From Saprospiraceae bacterium (GTDB lineage Bacteria; Bacteroidota; Bacteroidia; Chitinophagales; Saprospiraceae): a stretch of DNA of 42,136 nucleotides. The stretch's first letter is position 1, and each line of letters starts with the position of its first letter. Location of the stretch: contig JAJTEZ010000013.1 of assembly GCA_021298335.1 (NCBI GenBank), positions 13,634 to 55,769 on the forward strand. Direction: 5' to 3'. The position numbers and the translations under genes were made by a program. Shown here piece after piece: positions 21,536 through 28,072 of this stretch. The notes under the pieces are model-generated. The model worked only from the letters and a program-made list of their open reading frames with translations. It did no database searches and was not told the DNA's origin.

Positions 21536-22468
21536 ATGGTACAAAGATTCCTATTTCGCATTTTACTTTCCCCCCTTGCTCTGCTGTACGGTATCGGAGT
21601 GTCGCTGGTCAACTTGCTTTATGATACTGGCTTTCTTCGGTCGTCGAAGTTCAACATTCCGGTGATTAGTGTCGGCAATCTTAGTATTGGAGGCGCCGGA
21701 AAGACTCCGCACATCGAATATTTGCTTGATTTACTATCCGGGTATATATATGTAGCCACATTGAGCCGTGGGTACAAGAGGCTGACGCGGGGCTTTCGGT
21801 ATGCCACATACAGCGATACGGCGCTGACGGTCGGAGACGAGCCAATGCAGTATCGAATGAAATACAGAGATGTCATTGTAGCAGTTTCGGAAAGCAGGGC
21901 ATATGCCATTCCTCAAATTCTGAAAGATTCCCCACAGATTCAGCTGGTTTTACTGGATGATGCTTTTCAGCACAGAGCCGTAAAGCCGGGATTAAATCTA
22001 CTATTGACAGCCTATGATGCCATGTTTACACAAGACTTTTTATTGCCGGCGGGACGGCTCAGGGAATGGAGGTCCTCTTACAAACGAGCTGATGTGATTG
22101 TGGTAACAAAGTGTCCGGAAACACTTGGCGTTATACAAAAAAACAAGATAATCAGGGAAATTTCCCCGCTGCCATACCATAGAGTCTTTTTTACCCGTTA
22201 TGAGTACGATCTTCCGTACAGTTTTTATGACAAAAATCTGGGGCAGCCCCTAAATCAAAATATGGAAGTGATTTTGCTGAGTGCCATTGCCAATACCTCC
22301 TACCTGATGCAATATGTGGATGCACAGGTCGGATCGGTGACACAAATCGAATTTGCCGACCACCATTTGTTTGACAAGGGCGATGTAGAGAAAATTATTC
22401 AGGTCTATCGGAATAGTACGCCTGGTCAAACCATTGTACTGACCACAGAAAAGGATGCAATGCAGTGA
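21536..22468 (+). CDS. lpxK: tetraacyldisaccharide 4'-kinase, apparently truncated at the C-terminus
   Basis: PVISVGNLSIGGAGKTPHIEYL, LSRGYKR, VGDEPMQ, LLDDAFQHRAVKPGLNLLL, LLPAGRLREW; stops directly after TTEKDAMQ, a motif normally followed by about 35-40 residues. Confidence 0.92.
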   Translation: MVQRFLFRILLSPLALLYGIGVSLVNLLYDTGFLRSSKFNIPVISVGNLSIGGAGKTPHIEYLLDLLSGYIYVATLSRGYKRLTRGFRYATYSDTALTVGDEPMQYRMKYRDVIVAVSESRAYAIPQILKDSPQIQLVLLDDAFQHRAVKPGLNLLLTAYDAMFTQDFLLPAGRLREWRSSYKRADVIVVTKCPETLGVIQKNKIIREISPLPYHRVFFTRYEYDLPYSFYDKNLGQPLNQNMEVILLSAIANTSYLMQYVDAQVGSVTQIEFADHHLFDKGDVEKIIQVYRNSTPGQTIVLTTEKDAMQ

Positions 22469-22521
22469 TTCACCAGTATTTGCTCAACTTTACCATGTAA
22501 ATCATCAGAGAGAAATGATGT

Positions 22522-27438: not shown

Positions 27439-28072
27439 TTAAAAGTATTTAACAGGATTTGTCACTGTTTTGGTACAATGGGCTGCAAATGTACTAAAAT
27501 TATTCGTAATCAAGGTATAAAGCAGCTCAATTGTGTATTTTTCACTTTCATAATGGCCGATGTCAACCAGGATAATCTGCCCATCGGCATCAAAAAATTC
27601 ATGGTATTTCAGGTCGGCCGTAATAAAAATGTCTGCTCCTTTTCGTTTAGCTTCAGACACCAGAAAACTTCCCGCTCCACCACAAACCGCGACCACACCA
27701 ATTTGTGCATTGCATAGTTCTGTGTGGCGCAGATGGTCAATTTCCATCTTTACCTTGAGCAAATCCAGAAATTCTTCGACTGGCAACGCTTGTTGGAGCC
27801 TGCCAATCATACCTGCGCCTACTTCTTTGCTTTGGAACATTACATTTGGCTTCGGAGACAGGATTTCTGCATCCACAAGCGACAACCTTTCAGCTATTTT
27901 TGCATTTACCCCTGAATAGAATACATTGTCCAGGTTCGTGTGGACGGCAAAAATCGCAATCTCATGGCGAATAGCTTTGATAATGGTCCGCTCAATATAA
28001 TCATTGCCGTTCAGCTTGAAACTCTGAAGGTGCTACTGAATGGATAAAATCAATCAGGTTTTGTATCTTCAT
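27439..28072 (-). pseudogene. Nif3-like dinuclear metal centre protein, disrupted by internal deletion(s) and a frame change
   Basis: ATG at 28072 overlaps the rfaE2 stop (ATGA) and encodes MKIQNLIDFIHSVAPSEFQ before a stop at 28001; another frame from about 28014 encodes LNGNDYIERTIIKAIRHEIAIFAVHTNLDNVFYSGVNAKIAERL and continues to ...DIGHYESEKYTIELLYTL...NPVKYF. The IIAHHP segment is absent. Confidence 0.8.

Follow-up and report, generated by a model that had tools for sequence, protein, structure and literature searches.

A nif3 gene lacking its N-terminal metal-ligand segment in a draft Saprospiraceae genome: a probable assembly error

Members of the DUF34/NIF3 family carry dual-histidine metal ligands in the N-terminal part and the metal ligands HxxxE in the C-terminal part of the protein. 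The YqfO-type proteins also contain a central PII/CutA-like insert of ~100 aa, which is missing from the short form represented by E. coli YbgI; the large insert is present in only 28.3% of the bacterial family members, and the DUF34 genes are mostly non-essential (PMC8469502). Incomplete genes can also arise during sequence reconstruction. Local assembly errors and poorly closed gaps yielding incorrect genes have been described for metagenome genomes (PMC7111523), and local assembly errors are known from bacterial assemblies generally (PMC11017572).

The window analysed here is the whole stretch of 42,136 nt of a draft genome whose source is apparently an uncultured Saprospiraceae-type bacterium, probably obtained by metagenome assembly. 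The assembly comprises 2.97 Mb in 218 contigs with a completeness of 83.7%. The nif3 gene of the window is composed of the following parts:

28001-28072, minus strand: 5' remnant of nif3, with 19 genuine codons (28072-28016), four out-of-frame codons and TGA
28015-28021, minus strand: the join, TTTCAAG, at which 164 nt are missing in comparison with ten relatives
27439-28017, minus strand: 3' remnant of nif3, 192 open codons in the other frame, matching PF01784 positions 75-256, with HTNLD and GHYESE kept

As the first-pass annotation had described, the gene starts normally, with the ATG at 28072 forming an ATGA overlap with the stop codon of rfaE2 (TGA, 28071-28069). The 19 genuine codons read MKIQNLIDFIHSVAPSEFQ and are followed by out-of-frame AERQ and a stop codon at 28003-28001, while another frame, running from 28017 to its stop codon at 27439, encodes the remainder of the protein, KLNGNDYIERT...HTNLDN...VKYF. 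The Gln codon and the residue that precedes LNG (or its equivalent) lie exactly 55 codons apart in ten relatives, nine of them congeners and one a further member of the family. Only 1 nt of this interval is left in the window, and therefore 164 nt (54 codons and 2 nt), including those for AHHP, are missing from nif3. The earlier claim that the HH-motif segment is gone and that the gene continues in a different frame was thus borne out, and in the alignment none of the relatives showed an uninterrupted short Nif3 without the AHHP segment.

The same annotation attributed the gap to a deletion between TTTCAAG repeats, a mechanism that is not supported by the codons of the relatives at both edges of the join. 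The upstream edge corresponds to Gln-Glu codons, and at the downstream edge the relatives have Leu-Lys-(Lys/Arg) codons before Leu or its equivalent, leaving no room for TTTCAAG. The string, CTTGAAA on the plus strand (28015-28021), occurs once at the join and is readable in both frames, as any join sequence must be. Judged from these codons, the homology common to the two edges is likely to be at most ~1-3 nt.

The surviving part of nif3 clearly belongs to the family. The PF01784 profile matched with 151.6 bits (E 3.4e-44, cut-off 23.4) over positions 75-256 only, and GHYESE preserves the C-terminal HxxxE ligands, whereas the segment with the N-terminal dual-histidine ligands is absent from the assembly. 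No PII/CutA-like insert was found in nif3 of the window or in that of any of the nine congeners, all of which have the form of ~265 aa; this form is normal for the genus, which excludes the second deletion, of the insert domain, that had been suggested. In the family match of its 3' part and in the lack of a central insert, nif3 resembles the short form of E. coli YbgI, and its operon neighbours are the same as in the congeners. It differs from the short form in the loss of the 164 nt with the N-terminal AHHP and in the broken frame. The 3' frame, open and conserved over 192 codons, could in principle yield a functional shortened Nif3, either on its own or through frameshifting. Such a product would lack the dual-histidine ligands even with recoding, no ATG lies near the start of the 3' frame, where the first usual start is a TTG at 27885, and the form was found in no relative, so that we regard this reading as scarcely credible.

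Among the genomes of the order with at least 90% completeness, nif3 was present in all 34. The 164-nt gap was seen in none of the ~120 loci of relatives examined (with some genes represented twice), and the N-terminal segment was found in all of these except two cut by the ends of their stretches, a tally in which 108 were counted by pattern and the remaining listed sequences were judged by eye. The named relatives are mostly Saprospiraceae metagenome genomes, and the closest congener compared has ~73% DNA identity. Among the window genes, rfaE2, the neighbour of nif3, had a branch of 0.45 substitutions per site and the zinc-ribbon gene one of 0.12, and the 3' part of nif3 fell between them at 0.32. 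The branch of the nif3 3' part exceeded the nif3 branches of the other congeners except G002, and the branch comparison revealed no clear excess of change in the 3' part, which implies that the break is either young or not real.

A young break would fit a genuine recent deletion of 164 nt that made nif3 a pseudogene in this species or strain without any fault of the assembly. In accordance with this, most of the bacteria tested can do without their DUF34 genes (PMC8469502), so that nif3 alone could be lost. Between 26.6 and 39 kb, all other genes are intact, and a search of the whole assembly found neither a stray copy of the missing piece nor, by profile and sequence, the intact second nif3 for which the first-pass annotation had proposed to look. 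The consistent presence of the gene and the absence of the gap among the relatives argue against a real deletion, as does the occurrence of the same type of break in genes that cannot be lost. We therefore consider a genuine deletion unlikely.

These other breaks were found by comparing 460 kb of the assembly with the open reading frames of congeners, in which ~60-80 gene places could be judged; some of the breaks rest on one reference only.

21536-22500, plus strand, in the window: lpxK, frame lost after DAM (22462), 103 nt missing, with an 11-codon tail in another frame (22465-22497) and TAA
~15098-15104 of L214 (contig C69): lepB, 154 nt missing, including the catalytic-serine segment, with a frame change; the only signal peptidase I
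~7694-7698 of L159 (contig C15): ribBA, 61 nt missing near the 3' end, with a frame change
14357-14755 of L148 (contig C4): dcd (dCTP deaminase), first 45 codons lost, with 2.3 kb of contig upstream
~6720 of L157 (contig C13): gene of a large secreted protein, ~92 nt missing, with a frame change
~1149 of L151 (contig C7): putative Omp28-like gene, ~70 C-terminal residues lost

The break of lpxK (22442-22500) is of the same kind as that of nif3 and lies in the same window; after DAM/DAV, lpxK of the relatives has 46 codons versus 2 nt and 11 codons in the window, giving the 103 nt missing. The assembly contains a single copy each of lpxK and lepB, and each is broken. Besides the ribBA fusion, no GTP cyclohydrolase II was found in the assembly, whereas an additional, separate enzyme of this kind occurs in three congeners. 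Three further candidates were rejected: the protease-like gene at L216 and the pirin-like gene at L146 are intact, the difference lying in the reference, and at L148 13379-14200 the reference has Ns. Runs of 12 and 13 Ns were also present, the first immediately ahead of the window and the second within a transporter-like gene, and the assembly therefore includes scaffolding.

Signal peptidase I and the lipid A kinase, the products of lepB and lpxK, are essential to bacteria of this type. A living cell lacking both enzymes is not credible, and because the only lepB and the only lpxK of the assembly are both destroyed, an assembly error is preferred as the explanation of the breaks. Alternatively, the breaks could be signs of true genome decay, in which numerous out-of-frame deletions have arisen recently, as would happen in a symbiont newly confined to its host. 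Were the deletions real, the organism would be a dependent symbiont at an early stage, living with newly broken nif3, lpxK and ribBA and with a lepB from which the catalytic-serine segment is gone. The several broken genes in the 460-kb sample and the size of the assembly, smaller than that of most congeners, agree with genome decay. The breaks in the only lepB and the only lpxK speak against it, as do the presence of scaffold gaps and the conservation of the surviving parts, which are as conserved as elsewhere (87% identity in dcd; nif3 likewise). Both decay and the dependent lifestyle are thus very improbable.

An identical scan was also applied to this assembly and to five congeners. Frame changes with a loss of at least 30 nt were found at 2 of 78 gene places here versus 0 of 302 in the congeners (Fisher p ~0.04), an excess that rests on two events. 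The excess is probably understated, because nif3, lpxK and the gene of the secreted protein, each with one flank short or diverged, escape the uniform scan; these three were confirmed by hand. In the congener G005 (L131, L169, L179 and L183), conserved genes showed five small indels that change the frame but remove few or no nucleotides overall; they are a different kind of error with another signature.

The same fault thus recurs in unrelated genes, essential ones included, and is not seen in the relatives, the pattern expected of local assembly errors. The break noticed earlier in nif3 is real in the sequence; an assembly error is more probable than the gene loss it seemed to imply, given that breaks of the same type affect lepB, lpxK, ribBA and other genes and are not found in the scanned congeners. 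From the assembled sequence, we consider it very probable that an assembly error dropped a short segment of nif3, which would then not be a lineage-specific pseudogene. The assembly has probably lost short segments, of ~60-165 nt or at the ends of genes, where joins lacking support were closed without Ns, with nif3 as one gene among those affected. The case resembles the local errors described for metagenome-assembled genomes (PMC7111523) in its incorrect or incomplete genes at joins, its N scaffold gaps and the involvement of unrelated genes; unlike in those cases, the errors here are deduced from the assembled sequence.

The gap is likely not a real feature, and the organism most likely has an intact short-form nif3. 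The break carries little biological weight. Further broken genes from the same draft genome should be treated with caution, as probable assembly errors until the reads are checked, and estimates of gene content and completeness for this genome may be affected.
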